Shown in pieces: positions 27,514 to 48,079 of a stretch of DNA of 64,000 nt. The first letter of the stretch is position 1, and every line of letters begins with the position of its first letter. A model generated the notes under the pieces. It was not told where the DNA came from. It did no database searches and saw only the letters and a list, made by a program, of their open reading frames with translations. Source of the stretch: a virus; IMG/VR virus record IMGVR_UViG_3300046007_008377, positions 1 through 64,000 of that record; one strand, written 5' to 3'. Position numbers and translations under genes: made by a program.

Positions 27514-27596
27514 AAAATCCGACACAGTCAGCGTATTGTGAGATTTCGCTTTCCGTATCGGATTTTTATAATATTTTAAGGCGTAATAAATCTCAC
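27514..27596 (-). ncRNA. structured 5' leader with interleaved pairing (pseudoknot candidate 1)
   Basis: On the minus strand, four blocks occur in the order A-B-A'-B'. A is GTGAGATTT (27596-27588). B is AAAATCCGATAC (27566-27555). A' is AAATCTCAC (27546-27538). B' is GTGTCGGATTTT (27525-27514). A/A' pair over 9 bp perfectly, and B/B' over 12 bp with one U-G. The blocks interleave, so they form an H-type pseudoknot or two alternative hairpins. The TATATTTG promoter at 27616-27609 puts the transcript start at about 27602, just before A. No coding frame fits. Confidence 0.65.
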
Positions 27597-27608
27597 TAAA
27601 TTACAGAG

Positions 27609-27616
27609 CAAATATA
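27609..27616 (-). promoter_or_regulatory. promoter -7 element (TATATTTG, minus strand)
   Basis: CAAATATA on the plus strand reads TATATTTG on the minus strand. It lies just upstream of the structured leader of the replication genes. Confidence 0.6.
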
Positions 27617-27671
27617 TAAAGAACTTTTAATCTACCAAACAATCATGTAAAAAATTCAATTAATTCTAAAA

Positions 27672-27878
27672 CTATTTTACTTTTAAAATATCAAAAGTAA
27701 AGTTAGAATACATTTTTATTTGATCTACACGAACGGTAATTATATCTCCGCCATCACATAAAGCAACGGTCCATAAATCATTTTCAAACGTTCCGCCAGA
27801 AGTTACATAAATTGCCATACCTTCTTTTCCGTTTTCTTTTACAACTACTGGAATTGGGTTTTGAAATTCTAACATCAT
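27672..27878 (-). CDS. hypothetical small beta-rich protein
   Basis: A 68-aa protein (a start one codon later is equally possible). It has alternating strands with MAIYVTSGGTFENDLWTVALCDGG and ends TFDILKVK. Small beta-barrel proteins of this kind are common in Bacteroidetes phage early operons; the function is unknown. It lies 10 bp after the SSB-like gene. Confidence 0.6.
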   Translation of the reverse strand: MMLEFQNPIPVVVKENGKEGMAIYVTSGGTFENDLWTVALCDGGDIITVRVDQIKMYSNFTFDILKVK

Positions 27879-27888
27879 AATTTGCTAA

Positions 27889-28269
27889 TTAAAAGGGTGG
27901 GTCTGACATGTCGTGATCTATATTATCTACAAAACTATTTGTTTGATTAGCTTGCGGATATTCCATAGGTGAAGTTTGCGTTGTAGCTGTATTGTTATGT
28001 TGAGCGCTTTCTCTTTGTATGCGCCAGGCGGTAAGTCCAATATAGTATTTACCATTGTATTCAGAACCTCGAAGATTCGCGCTTACCACAACAATATCTC
28101 CAACACTAAAATTTTGCAAATAATCTGTTTTATCTTTTAAGAAGTCTATTGGAATGTCGGTCGGGTATTGCCCGTCTTCAGTTACTACAACTTGAATTTT
28201 TGTAAATCCACTATCAAATGTTTGTAATTCGCCAATTAATTTTATCTCTCCTTTAATTTCTACTGTCAT
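27889..28269 (-). CDS. DUF3127-type OB-fold single-stranded-DNA-binding-like protein
   Basis: A 126-aa protein. Residues 1-90 form an OB-fold with QYPTDIPIDFLKDKTDYLQ, VGDIVVVSANLRGSEYNGKY and a closing AWRIQ, which is the pattern of DUF3127. Residues 92-115 are a disordered Gln/Asn/Thr linker. The last residues, NIDHDMSDPPF, copy the acidic tip (DDDIPF-type) that bacterial SSB uses to recruit partner proteins. It should coat ssDNA during replication and RecT recombination. It sits between the exonuclease/RecT and initiator genes. Confidence 0.75.
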   Translation of the reverse strand: MTVEIKGEIKLIGELQTFDSGFTKIQVVVTEDGQYPTDIPIDFLKDKTDYLQNFSVGDIVVVSANLRGSEYNGKYYIGLTAWRIQRESAQHNNTATTQTSPMEYPQANQTNSFVDNIDHDMSDPPF

Positions 28270-28279
28270 TATTTTATTT

Positions 28280-28822
28280 TTAAATATTAATATATGTTTT
28301 TCTTCTTAAAATATTACTCATTGCGGTTTGACTTATATCGTAATCTTTTGCAAGCTCTGAATTTTTAAAACCAATTCTATGTAATTCTCTTACCTTTAAA
28401 ACATCTTCATTTTTTAATTTTGACATATGATGTTTTTCGCAAGTATTTGGGTTGCACAAACCATTTTTTACAGCATGTATTTGGTTATATTGATTTGTAC
28501 ACCATTCTAAATTTTCAACTTTATTATCTGCTTTAATGCCGTTAATATGGTTTACTTGAGGTAAATTTAATGGATTAGGAATAAAAGCTATTGCAACTAA
28601 TCTGTGCGCGCCAGTTGTAAATGATTTTTTATTTAAATATAATCTAACTCTCGAATATCCTTTATAACAAATATGCTGTTTTAAAGTTCTTCCCGTTTGT
28701 TTACCACTACCTACTCTTCCTTTACAATAATGGTCTATTGATTTAACATTTCCTAAATTACTGACTTGATAAATTTCTTCATAGCCAGGAACGTCTTTCC
28801 AAATTTCTTTTTGATTTTCCAT
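28280..28822 (-). CDS. NUMOD4-HNH homing endonuclease
   Basis: A 180-aa protein. Residues 6-34 are a NUMOD4 domain (EIWKDVPGYEEIYQVSNLGN). Residues 70-115 are an HNH domain (HRLVAIAFIPNP, QVNHINGIKADNKVENLEW). Residues 130-178 are a DNA-binding helix-turn-helix (KNEDVLKVRELHRIGF, ELAKDYDISQTAMSNILRR). Such proteins are free-standing homing endonucleases that cut related phages lacking the gene. It sits between the exonuclease and the SSB-like gene and has its own promoter and structured leader, as expected for an inserted element. Confidence 0.85.
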   Translation of the reverse strand: MENQKEIWKDVPGYEEIYQVSNLGNVKSIDHYCKGRVGSGKQTGRTLKQHICYKGYSRVRLYLNKKSFTTGAHRLVAIAFIPNPLNLPQVNHINGIKADNKVENLEWCTNQYNQIHAVKNGLCNPNTCEKHHMSKLKNEDVLKVRELHRIGFKNSELAKDYDISQTAMSNILRRKTYINI

Positions 28823-28825
28823 AAG

Positions 28826-28934
28826 AATAAATACCCGTAAAGCAACAAAAGGCTATCCGATTGGCTAATTATTAGCGAAGTGGCAGTTGAGGTTTACGGG
28901 ATTTATTTGATGTTGTCATTTTTAATCAGATAGC
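28826..28934 (-). ncRNA. structured 5' leader of HNH gene (pseudoknot candidate 2)
   Basis: On the minus strand A is GCTATCTGATT (28934-28924), B is AATAAATCCCGTAAA (28907-28893), A' is AATCGGATAGC (28862-28852) and B' is TTTACGGGTATTTATT (28841-28826). A/A' give 11 bp with one U-G. B/B' give 15 bp with one bulged U. A small hairpin GCTAA-TAA-TTAGC (28876-28864) lies between B and A'. B' ends three bases from the HNH start codon (28822), so B/B' pairing could hide the start. The promoter TACATTTG is at 28946-28939. Confidence 0.7.
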
Positions 28935-28938
28935 AGTA

Positions 28939-28946
28939 CAAATGTA
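28939..28946 (-). promoter_or_regulatory. promoter -7 element (TACATTTG, minus strand)
   Basis: CAAATGTA on the plus strand. It is placed so that transcription starts at about the first pairing block of the HNH leader. Confidence 0.65.
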
Positions 28947-28954
28947 CGAAAAAA

Positions 28955-29788
28955 TTATATTTGGTTCAGCTTAATTGAATTATAATATTCCAAAGCCATA
29001 GGAATTTTTGCAAGCAACGCCTTTTCTTTATCTAAATCTCTTTGAATAACAAACGTTTTTACTCTTTCTTCTTTAGTGTAAGCAGGATTGTCGGAAAAAA
29101 TTAAATTACGCCTTAATTGGTCAAAAAGGGGTTTAACTGATTCTTCATCAATATCAATAATGCCGTATCTGTTTTTAACTTTCCAAATTTCATTTTCAAA
29201 TAAATTTTCTGGACAATCAGTCAACACATAATGCAAGTGAAATTCTTCAGCATCGTAAAGGTGCATATAAGTTCTTCCCTGCCATTCGTAAATTGTATTT
29301 AATTCTCCAGACATAAATGTTTTTGGAGACCAAGAGCATTTTATATCCTTAATGACTTTTTTGCCATTAATAACGCAATTAATATCACATTCTCCTGTAA
29401 TATTTCCAACAGTAACTCTTTCTGTATTTTTCATTGTAAAAGACAAATTTTCAACATCAGAAACAAGGCCAATTCCACTATCTTCGTTTTGAAGACCTTT
29501 CATTACTTGCTTACTTTTAAGCTCTTCGTAGTAACCTTTTTTATTGAATAGCCACATAGATTCAATGTATCTTTTAGCGGTGTCTGAAAGTTGAGGTGGA
29601 GCATCACGTTTTAATTTTAACTCCATGTATAACTTTCTTTGAATTTCGGTTAAAGGCTTACCATTGTTTATTATTCTATCTTCAAAATCATTTAAAGTAG
29701 TTAATTGATTATCTGTTATTACCGCACCCATTTTTTCAACCATAAGCGCTCCAATTCCAGAAGCGCGAAATAAAACTTGTTTACTCAT
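28955..29788 (-). CDS. YqaJ/lambda-exo-like PD-(D/E)XK exonuclease
   Basis: A 277-aa protein with RASGIGALM near the N-terminus (the substrate-entry motif of YqaJ-type nucleases). The active site is built by GECDI (metal Asp), KDIKCSW (D-x-K) and EWQGRTYMHL (the Q-x-x-x-Y helix). Together these mark the viral alkaline-exonuclease family. It should resect dsDNA ends 5'->3' to give ssDNA for RecT, encoded 1 bp upstream in the same operon. All key residues look intact. Confidence 0.85.
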   Translation of the reverse strand: MSKQVLFRASGIGALMVEKMGAVITDNQLTTLNDFEDRIINNGKPLTEIQRKLYMELKLKRDAPPQLSDTAKRYIESMWLFNKKGYYEELKSKQVMKGLQNEDSGIGLVSDVENLSFTMKNTERVTVGNITGECDINCVINGKKVIKDIKCSWSPKTFMSGELNTIYEWQGRTYMHLYDAEEFHLHYVLTDCPENLFENEIWKVKNRYGIIDIDEESVKPLFDQLRRNLIFSDNPAYTKEERVKTFVIQRDLDKEKALLAKIPMALEYYNSIKLNQI

Positions 29789-29789
29789 A

Positions 29790-30776
29790 TTATTTAGATT
29801 TAATAATTAATTCTTTCTTTTTGTCGTCATACATAACAATTAAGTCAAAATCGTCGTCTGATACCGCAGGCAAACATTCTTCAAGTTGTTCAATTGTTTT
29901 TGATTTTTTAATATGTGCAACAACTCGTTCTCTTTCACTAGCTTTGTTTACAGCGTCTATATCAATCACTACTTCTTCGTGATCTACATATTGTGTTTCT
30001 ACATCTACTGTTTCTTCAGTAGAATTGGCAAATTTGTCATTTTTAATCACCGCTTGGTCGGAAATAAGCGCTTTCTGAACAGAAGTTGACAACGGCGCGT
30101 CTTTAGATAAGTGCAATTTAATAACCGTTTTAGAAGCCATTTTTTCAAACATATCTTTCCATAGCCCAGTTCCAAACTTTTTGTAAGTCTGCGAGAATTT
30201 TTTTGCGTGAAGTTCAACTTCTTCTTTGGTCATGTAGAAAGTACTTTCAAAACCATTTTGAAGTTTGAAGTAAGAAATAAATCCGACAACTGGCTTAGTT
30301 AATCTTTCTTTATCATCTTGAATCCATCTGAATTTTATTTCTCCAGTCATTCTGTCTACAGATTCAATTTCGCCTTCTCGAACATCAGAATCATTCATTT
30401 TTAAGAATTGTCCTGATCGCATTGCGAGTTGCTTGAGTCCTTTGGCCGAGATTTGAAACTGAACCATTGTTTTATAAGTGCCGTCGGCTTGTTTTGTATT
30501 AAACGGAACTAAGAAGCTGTGGCCAATACTCGGGTTAATTGGTAAATCTAGCGTGGCAGCCATTAAAGCAGCAGTATATAGCGAGTTTTGATCCGCATTT
30601 GCTAATTGGCCATTGGAATTTACTACAGAAAGAATTGACGTAACAAAAGCAACACCTTTGTCTTTGTCGCCTAAAACTTCTGCGAATTTATTTTTAATAC
30701 CATCTGAGTTAAGAAAATTAGATAGCGCTTTTACCCCAACTACAGGAGCTTGATTTGTTGTTGTTAAGTTTGACAT
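29790..30776 (-). CDS. recT: RecT-family single-strand annealing protein
   Basis: A 328-aa protein with the conserved RecT blocks AALMAATLDLPINPSIGHSF, VQFQISAKGLKQLAMRSGQF, FYMTKEEVELHAKKFSQTYK and GTGLWKDMFEKMASKTVIK. It anneals complementary ssDNA during recombination. The C-terminal 90 residues are acidic and family-variable. It forms a pair with the exonuclease gene downstream, and the operon also holds ssDNA-binding and NinG proteins. Confidence 0.95.
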   Translation of the reverse strand: MSNLTTTNQAPVVGVKALSNFLNSDGIKNKFAEVLGDKDKGVAFVTSILSVVNSNGQLANADQNSLYTAALMAATLDLPINPSIGHSFLVPFNTKQADGTYKTMVQFQISAKGLKQLAMRSGQFLKMNDSDVREGEIESVDRMTGEIKFRWIQDDKERLTKPVVGFISYFKLQNGFESTFYMTKEEVELHAKKFSQTYKKFGTGLWKDMFEKMASKTVIKLHLSKDAPLSTSVQKALISDQAVIKNDKFANSTEETVDVETQYVDHEEVVIDIDAVNKASERERVVAHIKKSKTIEQLEECLPAVSDDDFDLIVMYDDKKKELIIKSK

Positions 30777-30779
30777 GAT

Positions 30780-30998
30780 TTACTTTTTAAATTGGTTTAA
30801 ATATTTACTTTCAATTCTTGGCGATTTCCCAACCATGATTTTAGGAATGGCGCCGTTTTTAATTTTTAGATTTATAGTGCTGCGAGATACTCCAGACAAT
30901 TTAGCAAATTCACTAATTGAATAATTGCGATTATCTTCATTTTTCACATTGATAACAATTGTATCTCCTGGATTAACTTCTATTATTTTTTCTGACAT
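30780..30998 (-). CDS. MerR/excisionase-like helix-turn-helix protein
   Basis: A 72-aa protein. The C-terminal half SISEFAKLSGVSRSTINLKIKNG then IPKIMVG is a winged-HTH of the MerR/Xis (HTH_17) class. The N-terminal 25 residues form beta strands rich in Val/Ile/Asn. It may be a repressor of the operon or an excisionase for the integrase at 33.8 kb; the sequence does not decide between them. It lies 2 bp from the coiled-coil gene upstream and 3 bp from recT downstream. Confidence 0.7.
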   Translation of the reverse strand: MSEKIIEVNPGDTIVINVKNEDNRNYSISEFAKLSGVSRSTINLKIKNGAIPKIMVGKSPRIESKYLNQFKK

Positions 30999-31000
30999 AG

Positions 31001-32245
31001 CTATTGTTTTTTAGTCGGAACATTGTAATTTTTTTCAAGCCAAGAAACAAAAACTATCGTATCGTCGTACTCGTCTTGAACATTATGTTTTTCAAATTCA
31101 TCGTAAATGCTATTCCAGGTTTCTTCAATATCTTCAACTAGAACGTCAAAAATAATAGGACTTGTAACAATTATCCCTTTAACGTCTACATCTTCTTCGT
31201 GGTAGTTTTGATTGTCTATTACGTTTAAATCAATAGCTTCTTCTTCTAATTTAGCTTCTTCTTTACGCTTAGCTTCTGCTTGTTTTTCCTCAAATTCTTT
31301 TTTCTCTTTTTCAAATTTCTCTTGGGCAATTTGATTATTTTTGGCAATTTCTGCTTGTTCTTTAGTGAATTTCTCATGAGCAATTCTTTGTTCCTCTGCC
31401 TTAGAAACAAATTCTATTTGCGAATGCAGTCTTTTTTCGGCTGAATTGTAAATTTCTTCATAAGCCGAAACATAATGCCTTAAATTGACCAATTTTGATT
31501 TGGCAAAAACAGATTTCACATCAGCAATATCAGAAACAGAAAGCAAATCAATGTTTGCGGACCAAGTGCGTTGCCATTCTTGAATAAAATATTGTTCGGC
31601 ATTTTTTTCTTCAATTACTAAACCGTCAATACGGATTTTTTCCTGCTCTTGTAAAACAGAAATTTTTTCTTTAAGGTACAACGAAAGCTCCTCAACTTTT
31701 AACGGAAACAAAGATTCAAATTCTTGAAAAAAGGTTGCGTCAAATTCAGTATATGATTCATGAAAATTCGAAGCCACTTCTTCTATTTTTGCAAAAGTCA
31801 TTAAATTAAAAGCATCTTTCCAACTAGCAACGTAATCGTTAATTTCTCTTTTAATATTATCTATTCGCTCTTGTTCCAGGCGTAACTTTTCTTTACGCTC
31901 TTGCTCTTTCTTTTCTTCCCATACATCAACTTTTGCTTGACGTTGATTTTCGGCAGATTTTACATTTTCAATAAGAAAATCGTATTCTTTTTTTACAGAA
32001 TCAATTACAATTACCTTTAGCTTGGTAATTACTTCTTTAGATTCTCTTTCAAGTCCGGTTCGAAGTGTTTTTACAGCGGTTCTTGATTTTTTCATTTCCT
32101 CATAAGAAGCGATGTCTTCAACTTCTTTAATTGGATTTGCCTTGATCACCTCGGCGATAGCTTCTTTTTTACCTTGCAGCTCAGGTAAATATTCAGACCT
32201 GAATTTTGACAAGTCCATAATTTCGGTTTCTTGCTTTTTTGCCAT
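31001..32245 (-). CDS. coiled-coil protein associated with RecT operon
   Basis: A 414-aa protein. Residues 40-340 are almost entirely charged helix (EEKKEQERKEKLRLEQERI; EKEKKEFEEKQAEAKRKEEA). The early part, YEEMKKSRTAVKTLRTGLER, resembles DUF1351-type phage proteins that occur next to RecT. The last 70 residues form a small acidic alpha/beta end. It is the first gene of the recombination operon, from the TATCTTTG promoter at 32283. It may be a scaffold or nuclease cofactor. Function unproven. Confidence 0.6.
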   Translation of the reverse strand: MAKKQETEIMDLSKFRSEYLPELQGKKEAIAEVIKANPIKEVEDIASYEEMKKSRTAVKTLRTGLERESKEVITKLKVIVIDSVKKEYDFLIENVKSAENQRQAKVDVWEEKKEQERKEKLRLEQERIDNIKREINDYVASWKDAFNLMTFAKIEEVASNFHESYTEFDATFFQEFESLFPLKVEELSLYLKEKISVLQEQEKIRIDGLVIEEKNAEQYFIQEWQRTWSANIDLLSVSDIADVKSVFAKSKLVNLRHYVSAYEEIYNSAEKRLHSQIEFVSKAEEQRIAHEKFTKEQAEIAKNNQIAQEKFEKEKKEFEEKQAEAKRKEEAKLEEEAIDLNVIDNQNYHEEDVDVKGIIVTSPIIFDVLVEDIEETWNSIYDEFEKHNVQDEYDDTIVFVSWLEKNYNVPTKKQ

Positions 32246-32275
32246 TTTTAGTTTGATTTTAAATTTTTATTAGCG

Positions 32276-32283
32276 CAAAGATA
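32276..32283 (-). promoter_or_regulatory. promoter -7 element (TATCTTTG) of recombination operon
   Basis: CAAAGATA on the plus strand, 31 bases upstream of the first ATG of the minus-strand operon. Several AATTGTAT repeats lie upstream of it. Confidence 0.7.
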
Positions 32284-32309
32284 AAAATACTTTCTGATAA
32301 TCGGACAAT

Positions 32310-32469
32310 AATTGTATTATTTTTTATTGAAAATTGTATTTTATAACTCGGAGTAGAATATTTCTTACATTTATAAAGTTACTTAAAACATTGAATTGTT
32401 AGTGTTTACAATACAATCGGAATAGGATTATGCTTTTTAAAATAAAATTGTATCATAATTGTATTATTT
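32310..32469. repeat. AATTGTAT(TATTT) repeats in divergent control region
   Basis: AATTGTATTATTT occurs at 32310-32322 and exactly again at 32457-32469. Shorter AATTGTAT copies lie at about 32332 and 32447, and the inverse ATACAAT at about 32410. They surround the shared bipartite element and sit between two divergent promoters, so they are likely operator sites. Confidence 0.55.
32349..32431 (+). repeat. bipartite element copy 1 (shared with 42482-42563)
   Basis: CGGAGTA at 32349 is followed 50 bases later by TTAGTGTTT and then TACAATCG, a short variable step, and GGATTAT. The same blocks in the same order and near-same spacing occur at 42482. Both copies lie in gaps between divergent genes. 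Confidence 0.6.
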
Positions 32470-32485
32470 AATCAAAATTGTTTTT

Positions 32486-32493
32486 TACATTTG
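32486..32493 (+). promoter_or_regulatory. promoter -7 element (TACATTTG)
   Basis: TAnnTTTG match 35 bases before the secreted-protein ATG. It is divergent from the TATCTTTG promoter at 32283. Confidence 0.7.
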
Positions 32494-32527
32494 CGCCAAT
32501 CATTAATAACAATTAAAATTTAAAAAC

Positions 32528-33043
32528 ATGAAAAAAATTATTATTGCGCTATTCGTAGCAACAAGTTCATTTGCTCAAACAACAACGCCTTTTGTAATTG
32601 AGCATTGCGTTGATAGAATGACTGACAGAGAGTATTATTTCACTAGGAAAAAATTGATTTGCGCCAACGAGACCAAGACAAAGGGATTCACTATAACTCC
32701 AGATTTTAGAGCTGACGGAAATTCGTTTATTAATAGCGGATTTACTTGTAAAAACGTAAACATAGGTAATTGTGATGAAAATGACGATCTTATCATATTG
32801 TTTGATGATAATAGTAAAATCTCACTTACTTCTTGGAACAAATTTAATTGTGAAGGTAATGCGTATTTCAATTTTTCAGATGAAGATTTGGCTCAATTGT
32901 CAACTAAAAAGGTAAGCTCAATTAGGTTTACAAACGGCAGAACATACGAAAGTCTTACGGTTAAATTAAAGATTGAGCAAAAAGATTATTTTATTAAAGC
33001 ATACACCATGCAAAAAGTTGTAGAGATTGACTGCTCAAAATAA
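32528..33043 (+). CDS. secreted/periplasmic protein with signal peptide
   Basis: A 171-aa protein. Residues 1-16 (MKKIIIALFVATSSFA) are a clean signal peptide with predicted cleavage before Gln17. The mature part is beta-rich with six cysteines, which could form three disulphides in the periplasm. No family was recognised. It has its own strong promoter next to the integrase and methyltransferase, in the segment usually expressed from a prophage. A role in superinfection exclusion or host-surface change is possible (inference). Confidence 0.7.
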   Translation: MKKIIIALFVATSSFAQTTTPFVIEHCVDRMTDREYYFTRKKLICANETKTKGFTITPDFRADGNSFINSGFTCKNVNIGNCDENDDLIILFDDNSKISLTSWNKFNCEGNAYFNFSDEDLAQLSTKKVSSIRFTNGRTYESLTVKLKIEQKDYFIKAYTMQKVVEIDCSK

Positions 33044-33048
33044 ATATA

Positions 33049-33819
33049 ATGCGAAACAAAAATATGATTGAGCCACAAAATATGCAATGCGCGCAAACGA
33101 ATGTTATGCAGCGGTGTGGGTTGTTTGAAGGAAACGCTATGGATTTGCTTTTTGATTTAGAAGATCATAGCGTAGATTTGACAATATTAGATCCCGATTA
33201 TCAAGATTGGGATAAACTTTGCGAAGAAGGATTAATTTGCGAAGCTGTAAGAGTTACTAAATTGACTGGAAATATTATTTGTTTTACAAAACAGCCATTT
33301 GATTTTAATTTAAGAAACGAAGTAAACCATATTTTTAGACGCGAAATAATTTGGACTTTTTCAAACGGTGGAGCTTGGGTAAGTAAAAAAATGCCTTTAG
33401 TATCATTCCAAAAAATATTCTGGTTAACATTATCAAAAGAATTTTATATCGACGTTAGAACAGGATTAGATTACAACGAAAATACAAAAGATATGAAAAG
33501 ATTAAGTAAGGTTTTTGGCGATTGGAAAGAAGAAGGAAAAGAATTTGAAAAATCAAAAGAAGGAACTTGGATAAGGGATCACTACCATTTTAATAAACCG
33601 CATACAGGTAAAATACCATCAAAACCGAAGGATTTAATCAAAATATTAATTAAATGCTTTTGCCCTGAAAATGGAGTTGTTTTAGATCCCTTTTTTGGCA
33701 GCGGAATAGTTGGCGATGTGTGCAATAAATTAAATAGAAATTTTATTGCGTTTGAAATTGACGAACAAAGGGTAAAAATGTTCAATGATAAGCAAAGTGC
33801 TAATACTTTCTGCTTATGA
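33049..33819 (+). CDS. orphan beta-class DNA methyltransferase (N6-adenine/N4-cytosine)
   Basis: A 256-aa protein. The catalytic motif IV ILDPDY (DPPY-type, near residue 47) comes before the AdoMet-binding motif I DPFFGSGIVGDV (near residue 216), which is the order of beta-class N6_N4_Mtase enzymes. The middle part holds the target-recognition region. No restriction enzyme gene is adjacent, so it probably protects phage DNA from host restriction or alters regulation. It overlaps the integrase gene by ATGA, so the two are co-translated. Confidence 0.9.
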   Translation: MRNKNMIEPQNMQCAQTNVMQRCGLFEGNAMDLLFDLEDHSVDLTILDPDYQDWDKLCEEGLICEAVRVTKLTGNIICFTKQPFDFNLRNEVNHIFRREIIWTFSNGGAWVSKKMPLVSFQKIFWLTLSKEFYIDVRTGLDYNENTKDMKRLSKVFGDWKEEGKEFEKSKEGTWIRDHYHFNKPHTGKIPSKPKDLIKILIKCFCPENGVVLDPFFGSGIVGDVCNKLNRNFIAFEIDEQRVKMFNDKQSANTFCL

Positions 33820-35066: not shown

Positions 35067-35074
35067 AAACAAAA

Positions 35075-35104: not shown

Positions 35105-35120
35105 ATTAGGTTCTGTTTTG

Positions 35121-40742: not shown

Positions 40743-40843
40743 GATTTTTATAAGATTTAGATTTAAAATAATTGAAATTTGTTAATTGAAAAAATGACCT
40801 ACTAACGTCAAGCGCGTTCGGTCGTTTTAAAGATGTTTTTGAA

Positions 40844-41245: not shown

Positions 41246-41249
41246 GATG

Positions 41250-41522: not shown

Positions 41523-41527
41523 GATGA

Positions 41528-41656
41528 TTAAATAATAAAGTTGATAATATTTGTAAATTCGCTAATAATAATAAGAAGGCCACAAGCGGAAAACGCCGTA
41601 ATAAATAACAATATTTTGCCCTGTGTTTGTTCCGGTAATAAATTAAATTTTTTCAT
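41528..41656 (-). CDS. tiny membrane protein (42 aa)
   Basis: MKKFNLLPEQTQGK is followed by a long hydrophobic helix (ILLFITAFSACGLLIIIS) and a second hydrophobic end. It lies 5 bp from the next gene and is in the same orientation. Function unknown. Confidence 0.5.
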   Translation of the reverse strand: MKKFNLLPEQTQGKILLFITAFSACGLLIIISEFTNIINFII

Positions 41657-41660
41657 GGTT

Positions 41661-41822
41661 CTAATTTTTAAAGGTTGTAATAAAAACACTAACAAAGGCC
41701 GCCAGGAGTAACGATAAAAGAACGTAATTAAATAGCGTTTTAGTTGTCATGCAAAACATAAGCGCCACGACTATAAAACTACAAACGGCCAAAAGGAAAT
41801 AAAGAATAAATTTTGATTTCAT
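41661..41822 (-). CDS. tiny membrane protein (53 aa), first gene of early operon
   Basis: Two hydrophobic helices (FILYFLLAVCSFIVVALMF and LFNYVLLSLLLAAFVSVFI) form a hairpin. The TACGTTTG promoter at 41862-41855 is 33 bp upstream, so this is probably the first gene of the leftward early operon. Confidence 0.5.
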   Translation of the reverse strand: MKSKFILYFLLAVCSFIVVALMFCMTTKTLFNYVLLSLLLAAFVSVFITTFKN

Positions 41823-41854
41823 AATTTTAAATTTTTATTGTTTTAATTCTGAAA

Positions 41855-41862
41855 CAAACGTA
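41855..41862 (-). promoter_or_regulatory. promoter -7 element (TACGTTTG) of leftward early operon
   Basis: CAAACGTA on the plus strand. It is the only TAnnTTTG noticed upstream of the 41.8-35.1 kb operon. Confidence 0.6.
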
Positions 41863-42275
41863 CAACAGCACCACAAACGAAACTAATAAAATCGTTAATC
41901 TACATAAAAAGTCGATGAAATACATCATTGACAAAGTAAAATCCTACAAAAATATAGTGTTGAATAGTGTAAAAGTATCGATAAATAAAGGACTTTTGAA
42001 GGTTGCCGCCTGGAATAGTGTAAATTTGCCAATTAAAGGAAAGCAGCAGACACAAAACAAAGGACCAAAACACAATCCAACAACACCGGGGAACCTGAAG
42101 ACACAAAAACCACGTTTTAAACGATCGTAAACATTAACAGACCGAAATATATATTTTAATGCGTTATTGTTGTTTAATTGTTTTTATATGCAACCTGGAA
42201 ATATAGAAATATATTAATTTATTATAGGATCCGTTTAAATATCTGAAATTTGCCAATAGTCAGAGCGCACCAAGG

Positions 42276-42326
42276 AACACCCCAAAACAAACACACAACA
42301 CCATACAACAACAATAAAAAAAAATA
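42276..42326 (+). other. G-free A/C-rich tract (51 bases)
   Basis: Only A and C with three T's and no G. Similar shorter A/C-rich patches occur near 42064-42087. Such an asymmetric, easily melted tract is expected at initiation or priming sites, but no protein or RNA match is visible. Confidence 0.5.
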
Positions 42327-42481
42327 GCGCGTTTCCTTCACGGTTTTAAATTTCGTGATTGTCGAGTATTTTATGAAAGGTTAATTTAATTTTGTGGAGT
42401 TTTGTGCAACCTGGAAAGGCGCAACGCTTTAAAAATCAATAATTTGCGCGAGTTTTAAACGGGATCAATAAATTTAGTTAT

Positions 42482-42563
42482 CGGAGTAAACAACAAAGAT
42501 AATTTATAATTGATTGAAAGCTAGTAAGTTAGTGTTTTAATATACAATCGTATTAAGATTATA
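42482..42563 (+). repeat. bipartite element copy 2 (shared with 32349-32431)
   Basis: CGGAGTA at 42482 is followed 47 bases later by TTAGTGTTT, then TACAATCG, then AAGATTAT. It matches copy 1 in order, wording and spacing, while the sequence between the blocks differs. Confidence 0.6.
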
Positions 42564-42838
42564 AATGTGAGATGAAGCAGCAGCAACCGAACATAAAAAC
42601 GGCGTAAGTTTATACATAAAGGCCTGGATATCAAGTATAAAAAGGCAAAACATTTACAAAATATAATCCAAAAGAAAGGCCCCCGCCATCAAAAAAACCG
42701 TTTCCCTTTTGCCGATTGCCGCCCAGGTCCGTGGGTATAATCCCTACCTACCACATACTCTCACCACATTTAAAAAACGAACCTACAATTTCTAAAACCT
42801 CTGTAAAACAAAGGGCTAATGCGGTATTCTATATAAAA

Positions 42839-42958
42839 GTGAACGATTTGGCTTAAAAAGGGCAAAAGTGAACGATTAGTGAACGATTTGGATATAAAAG
42901 TGAACGATTCAATAAAAAAAAGTGAACGATTAGGTATTGTTATTTGAACGTCGTTCAC
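42839..42958 (+). repeat. five GTGAACGATT iterons plus inverted copy
   Basis: Direct GTGAACGATT copies start at 42839, 42868, 42879, 42900 and 42922. A palindrome TGAACGTCGTTCA follows at 42945-42957 and abuts the TATATTTG promoter at 42959. They are likely binding sites of the HTH protein encoded next (autoregulation) or origin iterons. Spacings of 29, 11, 21 and 22 are mostly near multiples of a helical turn. Confidence 0.8.
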
Positions 42959-42966
42959 TATATTTG
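42959..42966 (+). promoter_or_regulatory. promoter -7 element (TATATTTG) of rightward operon
   Basis: It touches the inverted iteron, so protein bound there would block RNA polymerase. The start codon of the HTH gene is 29 bases downstream. Confidence 0.75.
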
Positions 42967-42994
42967 CATATTAGTAATTATAAATGTTTAAATA

Positions 42995-43372
42995 ATGATT
43001 GATCAGGAAAAGGATTTCAGGCATAAAAAGATTTTGGATTTACATAACCAGGGTAAGAGCATTGCGGCTATTGCTAAGGAAATGGTAATGAGTAAGGGTG
43101 GAGTTCACAAAATACTTTCTAGTTTGATTATAAAAGGAGATTCTCCTAAAAAGGAGCCTATAGCTAAGGTTAAGTTATCTGGTCAAGAAGAAAGGTTTAG
43201 TTCGTTTGTAGGATATGAGAGAACTGATGTAAATCAATATGTACATAAGGAGACTGGTGAGATTGTAAATATAGCTTTTGTAAAGGCTAAGAAAGCTGGC
43301 GAATTTGGATATTTTGTGAAGGTATCTAGTGTTGAAAAAAAATCGACCGCAAGCGGTAATGAAGTAATCTAG
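42995..43372 (+). CDS. HTH regulator, probable iteron-binding protein
   Basis: A 125-aa protein. Residues 13-46 (KILDLHNQGKSIAAIAKEMVMSKGGVHKIL) form a resolvase/Sigma-like HTH: 'helix, IAAIAKE, turn, recognition helix GGVHKIL'. Residues 60-115 are a small beta-rich domain. The gene starts just after five iterons and a palindrome. It is the first gene of the rightward block. Autorepressor or replication-initiator roles are both compatible. Confidence 0.7.
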   Translation: MIDQEKDFRHKKILDLHNQGKSIAAIAKEMVMSKGGVHKILSSLIIKGDSPKKEPIAKVKLSGQEERFSSFVGYERTDVNQYVHKETGEIVNIAFVKAKKAGEFGYFVKVSSVEKKSTASGNEVI

Positions 43373-43377
43373 AAATC

Positions 43378-43635
43378 ATGACAGAGATAAGAGATCATAA
43401 GTACGAATTTAAAACGTACAATGGCAGAGTGAAAATTTACGTTGATGGGTATGTGATGTTTTGTTTTAATCAGATTGATTTTGCGGGATATTACGCCTAT
43501 AAGGACGATCGTAATCTCTACGGACTCGATATTTATATGAATCGAGAAAAAGCGGGACAATGCCAGATGGAGATTTATTTTAAGACTAAGGAGAATTGGA
43601 TTGGAGTTCTTAAATTGCTAGACGAAAACATGTAA
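43378..43635 (+). CDS. hypothetical protein
   Basis: An 85-aa protein rich in Tyr and beta strands (KYEFKTYNGRVKIYVDGYVMF). Unknown. It lies 5 bp after the HTH gene. Confidence 0.55.
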   Translation: MTEIRDHKYEFKTYNGRVKIYVDGYVMFCFNQIDFAGYYAYKDDRNLYGLDIYMNREKAGQCQMEIYFKTKENWIGVLKLLDENM

Positions 43636-43644
43636 TTAATAAAT

Positions 43645-43854
43645 ATGGAAGATTCAAAACGTTGCGCGATTGAGCTTGTTGAGAAAATGCGTTTATCTAG
43701 TTTAAAGATTACTAAAAAAGACGCTAAGGTTTGTGCTTCAATTGCGGCTCAATACATTATTAATGCAAATCCGCACAGCAATCCTCTAAATACGGAAGTA
43801 CATTCTACTATTGGATTTTGGCAAGAAGTTAAACAAGAAATAGAGAAATTATAA
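43645..43854 (+). CDS. small conserved phage protein
   Basis: A 69-aa helical protein (CAIELVEKMRLSS, TKKDAKVCASIAAQYIINANPH, then FWQEVKQEIEKL). The arrangement is common in Bacteroidetes phage early genes. Function unknown. Confidence 0.6.
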   Translation: MEDSKRCAIELVEKMRLSSLKITKKDAKVCASIAAQYIINANPHSNPLNTEVHSTIGFWQEVKQEIEKL

Positions 43855-43858
43855 AATT

Positions 43859-43920
43859 GGAAAGATGGCTGAATGGTTAAAGCTGAAAGAGTGTGCAGGT
43901 TCGAGTCCTGCTCTTTCCCC
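43859..43920 (+). pseudogene. tRNA remnant (class II-like) lacking the anticodon arm
   Basis: The acceptor stem GGAAAGA/TCTTTCC (7 bp) is perfect. The D-arm GCTGAATGGTTAAAGC is normal for a serine/leucine-type tRNA. The T-arm GCAGG-TTCGAGT-CCTGC is perfect. Between the D- and T-arms only 11 bases (TGAAAGAGTGT) remain, where about 40 (anticodon arm plus long variable arm) are expected. It is about 62 nt long and followed by CC. It cannot decode; it may be a decayed tRNA, a tRNA-like structure or an att-site relic. Confidence 0.75.
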
Positions 43921-44014
43921 TACAAGTTGATCATTGGTCAGCAACACAACTTTGATAAGTGCTTGCACACGCGAGATTTTAATTACTAGGAATTGTTAAA
44001 ATAATAAAGAAATT

Positions 44015-44341
44015 ATGCCAGATATATCAATGTGTTCTAATGCACTATGCCATTCTAAAGATTATTGCTATAGATTTACAGCTACTCCTAATCCCCATAG
44101 ACAAAGTTATATGGGTTTTGGTCCTAAAGAAGGAGAAGATAAATGCGATGATTTTTGGCCAAATAATAAAGACTCTGAAAAATGTAAACTAAATGGAGTT
44201 AAACGTGAAGGTGAGATATGCAATTTAGAACAATGCAACTATCCTAAATGCACCCAAGAAAATTATTGTAAGTATTGTCATCAAACAGATGGTGTACATA
44301 AAATGGGTTGTGAAACTAGAAAAATACAAATAAACTTATGA
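44015..44341 (+). CDS. cysteine-rich zinc-binding-like protein
   Basis: A 108-aa protein with 12 cysteines and 4 histidines (MCSNALCHSKDYCYRF; then CDDFWP; then Cys-rich CNYPKCTQENYCKYCHQTDG). The MPDISMC start is a conserved signature of a Bacteroidetes phage family. It probably binds zinc. It overlaps the next gene by ATGA. Confidence 0.65.
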   Translation: MPDISMCSNALCHSKDYCYRFTATPNPHRQSYMGFGPKEGEDKCDDFWPNNKDSEKCKLNGVKREGEICNLEQCNYPKCTQENYCKYCHQTDGVHKMGCETRKIQINL

Positions 44342-44577
44342 AACAAACAGCAGTAGAATGGTTAATTTCTAAAATAGAGGTTAATTCAAATCCTTCACTT
44401 ACACAAAAAGAAATGATTGTATACATTGAACAAGCCAAAGAAATGGAAAAGCAACAGATAATTGATGCTCAATCCTATGCAATATCAAAAGCTGATATGA
44501 CAAATAATAGAGGTTTTTTTGATTGCGAACAATACTACAACGAAACATTTAACCTTTCACAACAAGATAAACCCTAA
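44338..44577 (+). CDS. small conserved phage protein
   Basis: A 79-aa helical protein (QTAVEWLISKIE, KEMIVYIEQAKEMEKQQIIDA, ending FNLSQQDKP) of a type frequent in Bacteroidetes phages. Function unknown. Its start overlaps the upstream stop (ATGA) and its stop lies in the hairpin at 44568. Confidence 0.6.
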   Translation: MKQTAVEWLISKIEVNSNPSLTQKEMIVYIEQAKEMEKQQIIDAQSYAISKADMTNNRGFFDCEQYYNETFNLSQQDKP

Positions 44578-44590
44578 ATTTTGGGGTTTA
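44568..44590 (+). terminator. hairpin after small gene (no U-tract; weak)
   Basis: TAAACCCT/GGGGTTTA stem (8 bp, one T-G) with loop AAATTTT. There is no T-run afterwards and the next start codon is 5 bp away, so this may be a translational or attenuating hairpin rather than a true terminator. Confidence 0.4.
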
Positions 44591-44594
44591 TGTA

Positions 44595-44825
44595 ATGACA
44601 AAAAGTAAGATGACACTAAAAGAAAAGTTTGAACAATATGCAAAGGATGAAATTTGGCGAACCAGAAACTATAATGCAGAAGAATGTGAACTTATAGCAG
44701 ATGAATTTGCTATTGGATTTGCAGAGTGGTATTTGAATTTATCTAAATCAGATGATTGGGAAAAATTTGATTACAACACAAATGAAAAACTACTAGAAAT
44801 CTATAAAAAAGAAAAAGGATTGTGA
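44595..44825 (+). CDS. small conserved phage protein
   Basis: A 76-aa acidic helical protein (MTLKEKFEQYAKDEIW, ECELIADEFAIGFAEWYL). It resembles many small Bacteroidetes phage proteins. ATG-containing overlap with the next gene. Function unknown. Confidence 0.6.
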   Translation: MTKSKMTLKEKFEQYAKDEIWRTRNYNAEECELIADEFAIGFAEWYLNLSKSDDWEKFDYNTNEKLLEIYKKEKGL

Positions 44826-45181
44826 TTTACTTTAAATATTCAACAAGGCTTGTAATATTATTTGATAATATAGTTATCAAAATACCTATAAGCAGAAGAG
44901 GTTATCTACAAGGAATCAATGAGAAATACGTTTGGGATAAGTATAAAGATATTGATTTATTAGCGGAACTAAAATGGGTATTTATAGGTGTAGTATGTCA
45001 AAAGAGATATGATGCTGTTAAATCAATACCAAATGTAGTTGTAAGACGTATTAAATCAAAAGTTCCTGAATTTGATTTTGATAACTGCGATTTACATAAC
45101 AGTAAAAACTGGGGAATAGAAAATAAAGAATACATCTTACTTGACTATGGTATCAACAAACACATTGCAAGTTTATATTAA
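44822..45181 (+). CDS. kinase-like-fold small protein
   Basis: A 119-aa protein. The N-terminal strand-turn RLVILFDNIVIKIPIS looks like a kinase beta3 strand with an invariant-like Lys. A helix follows, and the end DNCDLHNSKNWGIENKEYILLDYG is similar to a kinase catalytic plus DFG segment (HxxNxG, LDYG). At this length it would be a minimal kinase-like domain. Activity cannot be judged. It overlaps the preceding gene by 4 bp. Confidence 0.45.
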   Translation: MIYFKYSTRLVILFDNIVIKIPISRRGYLQGINEKYVWDKYKDIDLLAELKWVFIGVVCQKRYDAVKSIPNVVVRRIKSKVPEFDFDNCDLHNSKNWGIENKEYILLDYGINKHIASLY

Positions 45182-45240
45182 AACAAATAAACCTATAAAA
45201 CGGCAGTAAATGTAAAAAAGTGCCAATAATCAGATAAAAA

Positions 45241-45594
45241 ATGAAATTTGAAACTTGGTTAGACGACAATTATCCGTACAGAAATAGAAATTACAGGAAT
45301 GAAAAATTGTACGGCAAAAGCAAATATGACGAAACTTATTTATACAACGAACTATTAGAAATTTTTAAAAAAGAAATTATGATTCCATTACATTACCCGC
45401 AGCAATACGATGTTATAGATTTTGTAAGCGACAACGGCTTAAATTTTAACGAGGGAAACGTTATTAAGTACATTACGCGCGCTAGAAAAAAAGGAACGCA
45501 TTTAATTGATTTAGAGAAGGCCTTGGATTATATCCAGCGAGAAATTAAGATTGTGAGAGAGAAAGAATTAAAATTAATAGAAAACGATCGATGA
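45241..45594 (+). CDS. DUF3310-containing nucleotide-kinase-operon protein
   Basis: A 117-aa protein. The C-terminal part IPLHYPQQYDVIDFVSDNG and VIKYITRARKKGTHLIDLEKALDYIQ matches DUF3310, a phage domain often near nucleotide-metabolism genes. Its function is unknown. It overlaps the next gene by ATGA. Confidence 0.7.
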   Translation: MKFETWLDDNYPYRNRNYRNEKLYGKSKYDETYLYNELLEIFKKEIMIPLHYPQQYDVIDFVSDNGLNFNEGNVIKYITRARKKGTHLIDLEKALDYIQREIKIVREKELKLIENDR

Positions 45595-45878
45595 TTTCCA
45601 AAGAACAATTTGCAAACGCAATAGAGGCTATAAGATTGCAGCAATACGAAGATAAAAAGAATAGTCAATTGCTTCAAGAAGCGTTTTCAATTAACGAATT
45701 TCCGATATTTCAGAATGATAAATTGGTTAATACAATAATAGACTTGCTTTCTTTTTGGTTTGACAAAGAAGAATTGCAACACTATTGTTTTGATTGTGAT
45801 TTTGGTAAAACTGGACCTGAATCTGAATGGGAAACACCTGAAGAATTATATAACAAACTGCTTAAAAATAAAAAATGA
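45591..45878 (+). CDS. hypothetical protein
   Basis: A 95-aa protein with a helical N-terminus (KEQFANAIEAIRLQQY) and a central acidic region with CFDCDFGKTG. Coupled by ATGA to both neighbours. Unknown. Confidence 0.55.
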   Translation: MISKEQFANAIEAIRLQQYEDKKNSQLLQEAFSINEFPIFQNDKLVNTIIDLLSFWFDKEELQHYCFDCDFGKTGPESEWETPEELYNKLLKNKK

Positions 45879-46006
45879 CTGACCAAGAAAAATTAAATGA
45901 GCTATTGGCTAAAAGAACAAAACTTATGCTTAAAGGATCAAACGACGAAAAGTTAAACGACAAAATTCGTGAATTGCAAAAAATAATTCGAGATGCAAGA
46001 AGATAA
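45875..46006 (+). CDS. small hypothetical protein (43 aa)
   Basis: MTDQEKLNELLAKRTKLMLK to the end IIRDARR, a charged helix. ATGA overlap upstream, and 14 bp overlap with the next gene. Confidence 0.5.
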   Translation: MTDQEKLNELLAKRTKLMLKGSNDEKLNDKIRELQKIIRDARR

Positions 46007-46796
46007 AAGAAAGTACAACGGCCGACGCGCAGGAACTACTAAAAACAAAATTCAAGGCGCATTTGCTGAGAAAAAAGATACTTTCGGAAGCGCTAAAGAA
46101 AAGAGAAATAGGTTCCAAACCGAATCGATGGAAGAATTTCTTAAAATTAAACCAGGAGAAACTTTTGAGCAATGGGAAAAACGCACTTCTAAAAAAAGAA
46201 TCCATGGCGTTACAAAAAAGAACAATTTGTCAATTGCCAAAAACGGAAAAATAGTCGTCGATAGAGAACGATTAACCGGAATGGCCAAAGAGAAGCAAGT
46301 TATAATTCGCCACAAATTTATAGAGCGTCCGTATGACTTTTTGGAAAATTATGCTTTTATTATGCGCTGGGCTAGTATTAGGTACAACATCTCAAAAGAC
46401 GACATTGAAATTGCTTTTTTCTTTTATGGAAAAGGAATGTTTACCAAGGAAGAATTTACGCGCGTATGCGTTCAATTAGGAACCGTAAAAGGTGTTTGGA
46501 CTAGATTTGTAAATAAGCCTTACATTACCGCAGCAGTTTTAGTAACCAAAGATAATGTAGTCAAAGAAATGGAATATTATCAATTAACGGCTGAATTTTC
46601 AAGATTGCTATTGGCGGTTTATGGCGGTTTGTCCAAAGTAAACAAACTAACTTTGACAATTAGATCATCTGCTCAGTACAAAAGAAACGTAGTGCATAAA
46701 GAACTAAATGATTTTTTAGAACAACTTAATCGAGAAGTTGACCAAACAATAAAAGGAGAATTAATTCCTTATTTTGACAAGAAAAATATTGAATAA
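45993..46796 (+). CDS. winged-helix regulator with basic N-terminus
   Basis: A 267-aa protein. Residues 1-45 are basic and disordered. The core (RPYDFLENYAFIMRWASIRYNI, DIEIAFFFYGKGMFTKEEFTR, then a wing-like KGVWTRFVNK) and the segment EYYQLTAEFSRLLLAVYGGL match the MarR-like winged-helix proteins seen in Bacteroidetes phages. It could be a late-gene activator or DNA-packaging-related DNA-binding protein; the position next to HU suggests regulation. Confidence 0.55.
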   Translation: MQEDKRKYNGRRAGTTKNKIQGAFAEKKDTFGSAKEKRNRFQTESMEEFLKIKPGETFEQWEKRTSKKRIHGVTKKNNLSIAKNGKIVVDRERLTGMAKEKQVIIRHKFIERPYDFLENYAFIMRWASIRYNISKDDIEIAFFFYGKGMFTKEEFTRVCVQLGTVKGVWTRFVNKPYITAAVLVTKDNVVKEMEYYQLTAEFSRLLLAVYGGLSKVNKLTLTIRSSAQYKRNVVHKELNDFLEQLNREVDQTIKGELIPYFDKKNIE

Positions 46797-46833
46797 CTTT
46801 TAATAATTGTAGCAGTAGCAAACTGCATAAAAC

Positions 46834-46849
46834 GCATATTGCAATATGC
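46834..46849. promoter_or_regulatory. 16-bp perfect palindrome upstream of HU gene
   Basis: GCATATTGCAATATGC is its own reverse complement and is followed by GCAATAT repeats. It lies 69 bp before the HU start. It is a likely operator for a dimeric regulator, for example the winged-helix protein just upstream. Confidence 0.6.
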
Positions 46850-46917
46850 AATATTGATTACAAAAAAACTGAAATTTAATTTAAATCCCGATTGCAAGGA
46901 TAAGTGCTAGAATTACA

Positions 46918-47172
46918 ATGAACAAATCAGAATTAATTAAAGTTGTTGCTTATAAAGCGTCAGTAACTCAAGAAACGGCAAAAAAAGTTATCAATGCGAC
47001 TTTTGAAATTATTGAAAAAGCAACCATGGAAGAAGGTAGAGTTGCAATTGCCGAATTTGGCGTTTTCAAAAAGCATGAAGCGGCTCCAAGAGAAGGAAGG
47101 AATCCAGCAACAGGACAAAAATTACAAATTCCGGCAAAAACGCTAATTAAGTTTAAACCTTCACAAGCATAA
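46918..47172 (+). CDS. HU/IHF-family DNA-binding protein
   Basis: An 84-aa protein: MNKSELIKVVAYKASVTQETA, then VAIAEFGVFKKHEAAPREGRNPATG and a basic end. The arm motif GRNPATG and beta-saddle sequences are diagnostic of HU/IHF. It bends DNA and may help packaging, recombination or transcription. Its own operator-like palindrome is upstream. Confidence 0.9.
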   Translation: MNKSELIKVVAYKASVTQETAKKVINATFEIIEKATMEEGRVAIAEFGVFKKHEAAPREGRNPATGQKLQIPAKTLIKFKPSQA

Positions 47173-47174
47173 AC

Positions 47175-47206
47175 AAAAAACCCGATACATTAGCATCGGG
47201 TTTTTT
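47175..47206. terminator. bidirectional terminator
   Basis: Stem AAAAAACCCGAT/ATCGGGTTTTTT with loop ACATTAGC, between convergent HU and ring-protein genes. Confidence 0.9.
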
Positions 47207-47207
47207 A

Positions 47208-47942
47208 TTATTGTTTTTCTTGAAAGTCTTTCGCTTCTTCCGAATTGACAAATTGGGCTATTTCTGGTTCGCGAATTGATAGTCCCGCGTAATTCAATAC
47301 CTTGGTTAAAAAAGGAATAAGCAAACTCTCATGTAAATCTACATCTTGCAAATCACTTGCGCTTGGATTGTAAATAGGGTTGCCGCCAACAGTTATAAAA
47401 GTCCATTTTGGAGCAAGCGGCGTTCGCAAATAGAAAAGCTCTAAATAATAACCGCTTGGAACCAAAGGAGCAGGTTTAAACTTAGTTCCAATTTTCTCAT
47501 AAACAGGAAACATTAAACTTGGAGCAGTCATATCTGAATTTACAAGTACGTTTAATTGGCGCTTTGATACCAATTCTATATCGACTTTCTTTTTTGTTGT
47601 ATTTTCTACCAAAGACAAATTTTCTACGCGGTAAAGATTGTTATTTGTAAACGACCAAGTTTCATCTGCTGAATTAAAAACAAATTCGCTTGGAATAGAG
47701 TACGTTGCGTAATAATCAATCTGCTCTCCTACATTAGCTTTTAGATTTGCGTACTCTGAACCTGTTAATCGTCTGTTCTCACGATTAAGCATTTGGTTGT
47801 ACTGAAAAAATAGGTTTTCAAAAATATCTCTTTGGGCTAAATTGCAGAAAATATCCAATTCTTGCGGCGCAATGTACCCCAAGTTTGATTTATTCATTAT
47901 AAACAAAACCGAATTTCTAATAAAGTTAACGCTAATTGCCAT
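47208..47942 (-). CDS. ring/connector-type virion structural protein
   Basis: A 244-aa protein. The N-terminus FIRNSVLFIMNKSNLGYIAPQELDIFCNLAQRD is the opening of a family of Bacteroidetes phage structural proteins that build tail or portal-associated rings. The rest is beta-rich (NYRVENLSLVEN; LELFYLRTPLAPKW). It is on the opposite strand, about 43 kb from the first connector, separated from other virion genes. A -7-like TACCTTTA lies upstream of its start. Function inferred from family resemblance. Confidence 0.55.
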   Translation of the reverse strand: MAISVNFIRNSVLFIMNKSNLGYIAPQELDIFCNLAQRDIFENLFFQYNQMLNRENRRLTGSEYANLKANVGEQIDYYATYSIPSEFVFNSADETWSFTNNNLYRVENLSLVENTTKKKVDIELVSKRQLNVLVNSDMTAPSLMFPVYEKIGTKFKPAPLVPSGYYLELFYLRTPLAPKWTFITVGGNPIYNPSASDLQDVDLHESLLIPFLTKVLNYAGLSIREPEIAQFVNSEEAKDFQEKQ

Positions 47943-47981
47943 GGTCTTAAATTTTTATGTAAAGGTAAATAAAATATTTCA

Positions 47982-47989
47982 TACATTTG
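47982..47989 (+). promoter_or_regulatory. promoter -7 element (TACATTTG) of HNH leader
   Basis: An exact consensus with the predicted start (about 47996) just before the first pairing block of the structured leader. Confidence 0.65.
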
Positions 47990-47998
47990 CAGAGCAAT

Positions 47999-48079
47999 CC
48001 ACTACTTGCGCTGAAGATATTTAGTCGAAAGGCTAACCGGAAATCCTCAAAGATGCGTAGTGGCTCTTTGGGGATTTTT
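47999..48079 (+). ncRNA. structured 5' leader of HNH-AP2 gene (pseudoknot candidate 3)
   Basis: A is CCACTAC (47999-48005). A GNRA-capped hairpin TTAGTC-GAAA-GGCTAA is at 48021-48036. B is AAATCCTCAAAGA (48041-48053). A' is GTAGTGG (48057-48063). B' is TCTTTGGGGATTT (48065-48077), followed by TT. A/A' is 7 bp, and B/B' is 13 bp with one U-G. A' lies inside the loop of B/B', which alone looks like a terminator hairpin (loop TGCGTAGTGGC, T5 after). A/A' pairing could therefore form a pseudoknot or prevent termination. Confidence 0.7.

Follow-up and report, generated by a model that had tools for sequence, protein, structure and literature searches.

Kissing-hairpin leaders behind TAnnTTTG promoter elements: a family of promoter-proximal RNA in flavobacterial phages

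What kind of RNA is made where three structured leaders lie directly behind TAnnTTTG promoter elements of a single phage, and what might it do for the genes that follow? The question is raised by a stretch of 64,000 nucleotides (nt) of the IMG/VR record IMGVR_UViG_3300046007_008377 (hereafter the window; the whole phage record is 69 kilobases (kb) long). A sequence-only reading had placed leaders 1, 2 and 3 at 27514-27596 (-), 28826-28934 (-) and 47999-48079 (+), each directly behind such an element, and these positions were borne out. All three are members of a single RNA family, found close to promoters in flavobacterial phages, which we call the kissing-hairpin leader. The fold of this family, its place behind the promoter element, its terminator-like tail and its reuse are established. 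As to function, we give a probability of roughly 45% to the reading that the leader is a transcription attenuator and that its finished fold, on mRNA that is read through, additionally forms a cap at the 5' end.

Two hairpins with kissing loops

In the window, we searched the 130 nt behind each of 157 TAnnTTTG sites for the best interleaved pair of stems by stacking energy. The three leaders took the first three ranks (-36.4, -35.1 and -32.5 kcal/mol; rank 4, -27.9). When each leader was shuffled 1000 times with its dinucleotides kept, no shuffle matched the real value. In all three the stems follow one another in the proposed order A-B-A'-B', and B and B' carry the AAATCC/GGATTT-type blocks previously seen in them. 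The TAnnTTTG elements stand at 27616 (-), 28946 (-) and 47982 (+), with A beginning 12, 4 and 9 nt behind them in leaders 1, 2 and 3. A scan of the 69-kb record without the promoter condition, in which a U-run and an open reading frame (ORF) were required, put leaders 1 and 3 on top and gave nothing else convincing; leader 2 falls outside this filter.

Homologues define the fold more closely. Relatives of the 73-amino-acid (73-aa) ORF behind leader 1 are present in IMG/VR, and 73 of 80 such loci carry an interleaved structure of 75-90 nt behind TAnnTTTG, usually about 150 nt ahead of the ORF. These loci provide 59 distinct versions of the leader, the stems of which vary widely (GTGAGATTT/AAATCTCAC, GGTTTGGCG/CGCCAAACC, GTGGAACG/CGTTCCAC). 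A hairpin around A, named P1, is found in 58 of the 59, and an inner stem around A', named C, in 56. Because these two helices exist, the leader consists of two hairpins with kissing loops: the first (H1) holds A in its loop, and the second (H2) is made of stem B, usually with the inner stem C, and holds A' in its loop, as in leaders 1 and 3. The pseudoknot architecture first proposed is thus right in its interleaved stems and wrong in being a bare A-B-A'-B'. The earlier reading had overlooked P1 around A (leaders 1 and 3), C inside B (leader 1) and the U-tract after B', and also the divergence of leader 2, a subtype in which P1 is missing and no U-tract stands out clearly.

Several types can be distinguished. 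Type I, which includes leader 1, follows the pattern GTAATGAA[A]CATTAC, type II the pattern GTTG[A]attataCAAC, and type III, with leader 3, the pattern GCAAt[A]TTGC with an extra hairpin in the linker. The subtype of leader 2 combines the absence of P1 with an A:A' helix of 11 base pairs (bp) and a hairpin within the H2 loop; it was seen ahead of HNH genes only, and its support consists of three variants compared by eye (GCTATCTGATT/AATCGGATAGC, GCTTATTCGTT/AACGGATAAGC, GCTATCTCGTT/GACGGGATAGC). In the family the A:A' helix measures 7-11 bp. Type I linkers are short (2 nt) 5' of A and long (3-5 nt) 3' of A', an arrangement mirrored in type II; such lengths appear to fit pseudoknot geometry and, with A' sitting in the H2 loop, let P1, C and A:A' coexist.

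The claim that structure rather than sequence is conserved received strong support from covariation. In the alignment of 25 type I leaders, 97.8% of cells are paired, both sides have changed in 20 of 30 pairs, and compensatory changes occur in every helix; the covariation score is 0.488, whereas shuffled alignments score 0.194 and slid structures no more than 0.09. In A:A', the kissing helix, 99% of cells pair, with double changes in six of its eight pairs. The type III alignment, which includes leader 3, scores 0.531 against 0.257 when shuffled, and its kissing helix is 100% paired. RNAalifold, which is blind to pseudoknots, recovers P1, B and C unaided. A lack of covarying pairs among homologues, which was to count against the proposal, was thus looked for, and types I and III both covary.

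An independent check came from a covariance model built without the A:A' pairing, which matched new leaders ahead of unrelated genes. All 17 independent matches, none of them used in building the model, keep A:A' (mean 8 bp, minimum 6), whereas shuffled loops reach 7 bp in 1.2% of cases. Among 92 distinct leaders, A and A' of the same leader always form at least 6 bp, against 11% when A and A' are taken from different leaders. Copies within one phage are orthogonal, their cross-copy loop pairing being 5 bp at most. AT-rich sequence commonly holds long weak helices, and this speaks for chance pairing; that explanation is refuted by the covariation, and the shuffles, the slides, the independent matches and the six cultured phages named below leave virtually nothing of it. 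One other record, IMGVR_UViG_3300046007_002509, carries five kissing-hairpin leaders in 9.5 kb with differing loop pairs, which head a methyltransferase gene, an HNH gene, ORFs of unknown function and others.

Leader 1 lies on the minus strand. Its -7 element, TATATTTG (27609..27616), is read directly from the sequence. The 5' arm of P1, TGTAAT (27600..27605), closes H1 around A, and the P1 helix is 95% paired in 25 homologues. The H1 loop is A itself, GTGAGATTT (27588..27596), followed by the 3' arm of P1, ATTACG (27582..27587). H2 begins with B, AAAATCCGATACGG (27553..27566), which is its 5' arm, and the arms of C, AGCG (27547..27550) and CGCT (27530..27533), enclose A', AAATCTCAC (27538..27546), the H2 loop and partner of A in the 99% paired helix. 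B', CTGTGTCGGATTTT (27514..27527), ends in the U-tract. The pairing scan and the homologue alignment both support A and B; the 3' arm of P1 and both arms of C come from the homologue alignment, and B' from the pairing scan, the U-tract count and the terminator score.

Leader 2, also on the minus strand, has the -7 element TACATTTG (28939..28946, from the sequence) and then A, GCTATCTGATT (28924..28934), with no P1 around it. B (28893..28906) has the core CCCGTAAA and is lengthened by an AT-rich block in front; the extra hairpin GCTAATAATTAGC (28864..28876) lies between B and A', AATCGGATAGC (28852..28862). B', TTTACGGGTATTTATT (28826..28841), lacks a long U-tract.

Leader 3, on the plus strand, has the same -7 element, TACATTTG (47982..47989, from the sequence). 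The P1 arms GCAA (47994..47997) and TTGC (48006..48009), both defined by the type III alignment, enclose A, CCACTAC (47999..48005), which forms the H1 loop and is 100% paired in 6 sequences with 5 of 7 pairs double-changed. The same alignment shows the extra hairpin TTAGTC-GAAA-GGCTAA (48021..48036) between H1 and H2. H2 comprises B, GAAATCCTCAAAGA (48040..48053), A', GTAGTGG, as its loop (48057..48063), and B', TCTTTGGGGATTTTT (48065..48079), with a U-tract.

Genes behind the leaders

Our catalogue holds 101 leaders that head an ORF, 92 of them distinct; in 43 of the 101 the ORF is not one of the main 73-aa set. Its descriptor demands a U-run or a very strong score, and the unselected 73-aa set is its unbiased part. 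The covariance model R1 matches mainly type I, its E-values being rough, and the other types were reached by a custom descriptor scan. Endonuclease genes of the NUMOD4-HNH, other HNH and GIY-YIG kinds occur behind leaders, as do genes for N6/N4 methyltransferase, ERF, a PIF1/RecD-like helicase, an AAA_24 ATPase, YopX and replication proteins, and small ORFs of unknown function. No structural gene was seen behind any convincing copy among the catalogued leaders. A family limited to homing endonucleases can be rejected, as many other genes follow leaders. The suggestion that the leaders control mobile endonucleases and a replication operon holds in that both kinds of gene are headed by them; it is too narrow, since many early-type phage genes are as well, and the control itself remains presumptive.

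Leaders also occur in six cultured phages, namely Flavobacterium phages morran9-1 and FCL-2, Olleya phage Harreka_1, Tenacibaculum phage JQ, Cellulophaga phage phi19:1 and Polaribacter phage P12002S. Their hosts represent five flavobacterial genera, and the leader stands at or just ahead of the 73-aa ORF or a replication gene. In morran9-1 (MN812219) the leader region, 14157-14300, is annotated as the protein gene gp042, which is probably a spurious ORF. In 41 relatives, 10 of 16 distinct NUMOD4 genes have a leader, and those without one lie mostly inside operons. The NUMOD4-HNH genes examined in Staphylococcus and Enterococcus phages are packed so tightly into operons that a leader would not fit, and none was found in the Bacillus NUMOD4-HNH case that was scanned. 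Two scans of bacterial genomes gave no match to the 73-aa protein.

Many ORFs unrelated to one another are headed by type I leaders of nearly the same sequence, and this suits the view that the leader is a promoter-terminator cassette kept mainly as a point of recombination. The PeSLs of T4-like phages, named in PMC4503421, are composite promoter-terminator motifs that mediate gene shuffling. Recombination requires identity, yet the leaders diverge in sequence while compensatory changes keep their pairing, and we consider a mere shuffling cassette very improbable.

In the window, the 73-aa ORF of leader 1 (27250..27471, minus strand), to which no function is assigned, is the first gene ahead of a primosomal/O-like replication gene (26514-27311). 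A separate conserved element, AATAGTTTACTGGTATCTTAAAAACCTTTATTATTATG / ANAGTTTATnnGTAnCTTAAAACnnTTATTATTATG (27469..27507, minus strand), forms a small covarying hairpin just 5' of its start codon. This 4-bp hairpin (ANAGTTTATnnGTAnCTTAAAACnnTTATTATTATG) is 97% paired, with covarying pairs and a nearly invariant loop, and occurs in nearly all 73-aa loci, even where the kissing leader is absent or set off by a small ORF; in this it resembles a protein-binding operator. In Olleya phage Harreka_1 (MT732457, 30188-30319) a 43-aa ORF sits between the two elements, which are therefore separable.

As had been noted, a NUMOD4-HNH gene follows each of leaders 2 and 3. The gene of leader 2 encodes a NUMOD4-HNH_3 homing endonuclease (28280..28822, minus strand), B' ending 3 nt ahead of its start codon. 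The gene of leader 3, for a NUMOD4-HNH-AP2 homing endonuclease (48097..48863, plus strand), is a single gene with a terminator-like stem behind it (48841-48871). This stem and another at 47175-47206 (+) are strongly terminator-like, are bordered on either side by A and T tracts, and flank the region of the leader-3 HNH gene and a convergent structural gene.

Terminator-like tail and possible function

We measured the U-tract from the last G or C of B', taking the longest run of T in the 12 nt that follow. In 53 leaders that head the 73-aa ORF, a set chosen with no regard to U-tracts, the run has a mean of 5.2 and reaches 4 or more in 94%; the corresponding share is 86% in 21 other leaders, and it falls to 2% and 5%, respectively, in the control 14-26 nt further on. 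The tract is tied in position to H2 and varies in its distance from the start codon, which is 7-24 nt from B' for most other ORFs and about 45-50 nt for the 73-aa ORF. Terminator d-scores exceed -20 in 92% of the 59 unselected leaders (median -4.2; 36% above 0), compared with 2% of windows inside ORFs and 10% of windows after stop codons; the score was designed for E. coli, and only this comparison with controls counts. H2 thus scores as a weak-to-moderate intrinsic terminator. A stable stem followed by a U-tract is present except in the subtype of leader 2, mostly devoid of a U-tract, and a terminator-like hairpin lies between the promoter and the first ORF.

The function of the family is inferred, as are the point where transcription begins, termination in vivo, the way in which kissing acts on it and any trans-acting regulator. 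According to the attenuator reading, the transcript would begin a few bases ahead of H1, with its loop A, and continue through a short A-rich linker into H2, with A' in its loop; A:A' pairing over 7-11 bp would lock the two loops together. H2 and its immediate U-tract would form an intrinsic-terminator layout about 95-100 nt from the start. A share of the RNA polymerases would halt there and release a short kissing-hairpin RNA, the remainder reading on into the ORF that starts 7-50 nt downstream. A could pair with A' once A' emerges, before B' exists, and so set the speed or quality of H2 closure, and the completed fold would cap the 5' end of the read-through mRNA. The narrower proposition, that closure of the terminator is set by kissing with the first hairpin and tuned for each operon by its own loop pair, with no protein or ligand, seems doubtful. 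For leader 3, a local effect is preferred to long-range antitermination because it heads a single gene with its own terminator-like stem.

Several observations weigh against attenuation. The d-scores lie near the E. coli threshold, so termination may be weak, and leader 2 and most of its relatives have no U-tract. Unlike the alternative structures of a classical attenuator, kissing and H2 can exist together, because A' is in the loop of H2 and not in its stem; inspection, with no systematic search made, revealed no alternative antiterminator that would exclude the terminator stem. Many operons behind the leader are essential, and a strong terminator there would need relief.

The lack of a U-tract in leader 2, which ends 3-9 nt ahead of the start codon, would be easier to understand if the leader stabilised the mRNA or controlled translation, its compact 5'-end fold blocking 5'-dependent decay or gating ribosome entry. 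In every type, moreover, only a few nt separate P1 or A from the predicted start, and 5' RNA structure controls T4-like homing endonucleases (PMC3014915). This explanation, which we hold to be somewhat unlikely, accounts neither for the U-tract fixed behind H2 nor for the 45-50 nt gap to the 73-aa start codon, the start codon being outside the conserved stems.

The terminated product of 95-100 nt could itself be a functional small RNA, with the ORF read by leakage only. The fold is self-contained from start to U-tract and occurs in several copies per phage, as such a product might be. Its loop sequences vary between copies, it has no conserved unpaired stretch except the AT-rich linker, and it always stands ahead of an ORF, which makes this a rather improbable account.

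Gene control in flavobacterial phages is hardly known. Placed ahead of replication genes in unrelated flavophages and reused for homing endonucleases, a methyltransferase and recombination genes, the leader would be an RNA regulator common to these phages that no database lists, and they probably have in common an RNA-based throttling or timing of DNA-replication and mobile-endonuclease genes. Since cultured phages carry leaders, their function can be tested directly. The separate loop pairs within one phage also constitute a natural set of orthogonal kissing loops.

Comparison with known systems

That the class is undescribed, as the sequence-only reading suspected, is strongly supported. Searched with Rfam 15 at the gathering threshold, the whole window gave only a tRNA elsewhere, and the three leader-bearing loci gave no match at E up to 1, so that a known Rfam class, which was also to count against the proposal, did not emerge; nor did we find a paper describing the kissing-hairpin leader. 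Elsewhere in the window, a tRNA-like sequence at 43859-43919 (+) scores 45.9 bits with the Rfam tRNA model and has acceptor, D and T arms, a few bases replacing the anticodon arm; ARAGORN reports no tRNA there.

The riboswitch and pseudoknot families of Rfam 15 are comparable in being 5' leaders with a structure, which in some of them includes a pseudoknot or a kissing loop. Conserved unpaired nucleotides, as in the ligand site of a riboswitch, were not found, and only an AT-rich linker is common to all types. The P1/P2 helices of a hepatitis delta virus-like ribozyme are interleaved too, but the leaders have no P4 and no Rfam match. A remnant of a group I intron, suggested by the P3/P7 order, was discarded because the leaders lie between promoter and ORF, not within genes, and again have no Rfam match. 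A role in RNA is preferred to one in DNA, such as an origin, because the leaders are always sense-oriented just behind a promoter.

The pseudoknot of T4 gene 32 mRNA and the hairpins of T4-like phages that mask ribosome-binding sites are likewise structured phage 5' leaders, some before homing endonuclease genes; both act at translation (PMC3014915). The kissing leaders leave the start codon out of their conserved stems (B' of leader 2 ends 3 nt before the ATG), and their second stem carries a U-tract. With intrinsic terminators and attenuators they share a GC-containing stem, a direct U-tract and a position upstream of the first ORF; what sets them apart is that their apical loop pairs with that of a hairpin further upstream.

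The put RNA of phage HK022 binds the beta' zinc-binding domain of RNA polymerase and suppresses termination. It is a cis-acting phage RNA with two stem-loops near the early transcript start and more than one copy per genome, and the leaders resemble it in having two hairpins over 75-90 nt just behind TAnnTTTG. The leader might accordingly stay on RNA polymerase and confer resistance to pausing and termination; several copies per phage stand at the starts of different operons, and the U-tract could be a pause that gives time to fold. For put, about 70 nt with two stem-loops near early phage promoters suffice with no dedicated protein factor, and no pseudoknot is mentioned (PMC9378689). The two put RNAs, putL and putR, share sequence, whereas the leaders have a U-tract at their end, and no complementary loop sequence is common to the copies of one phage; leader 3, moreover, stands before one gene only, which is followed by a terminator-like stem. 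A put-like action is therefore unlikely, and the attenuator remains our preferred reading.

PeSLs are simple stem-loops and recombination points, and to our knowledge no kissing hairpins have been reported for them. They join a promoter to a terminator-like stem-loop ahead of exchangeable phage genes and before many unrelated ORFs, and the same composite is found here ahead of homing endonuclease genes and small ORFs; host and promoter type differ. HK022 put is the nearest known system in place and size, and PeSL the nearest as a promoter-terminator module.

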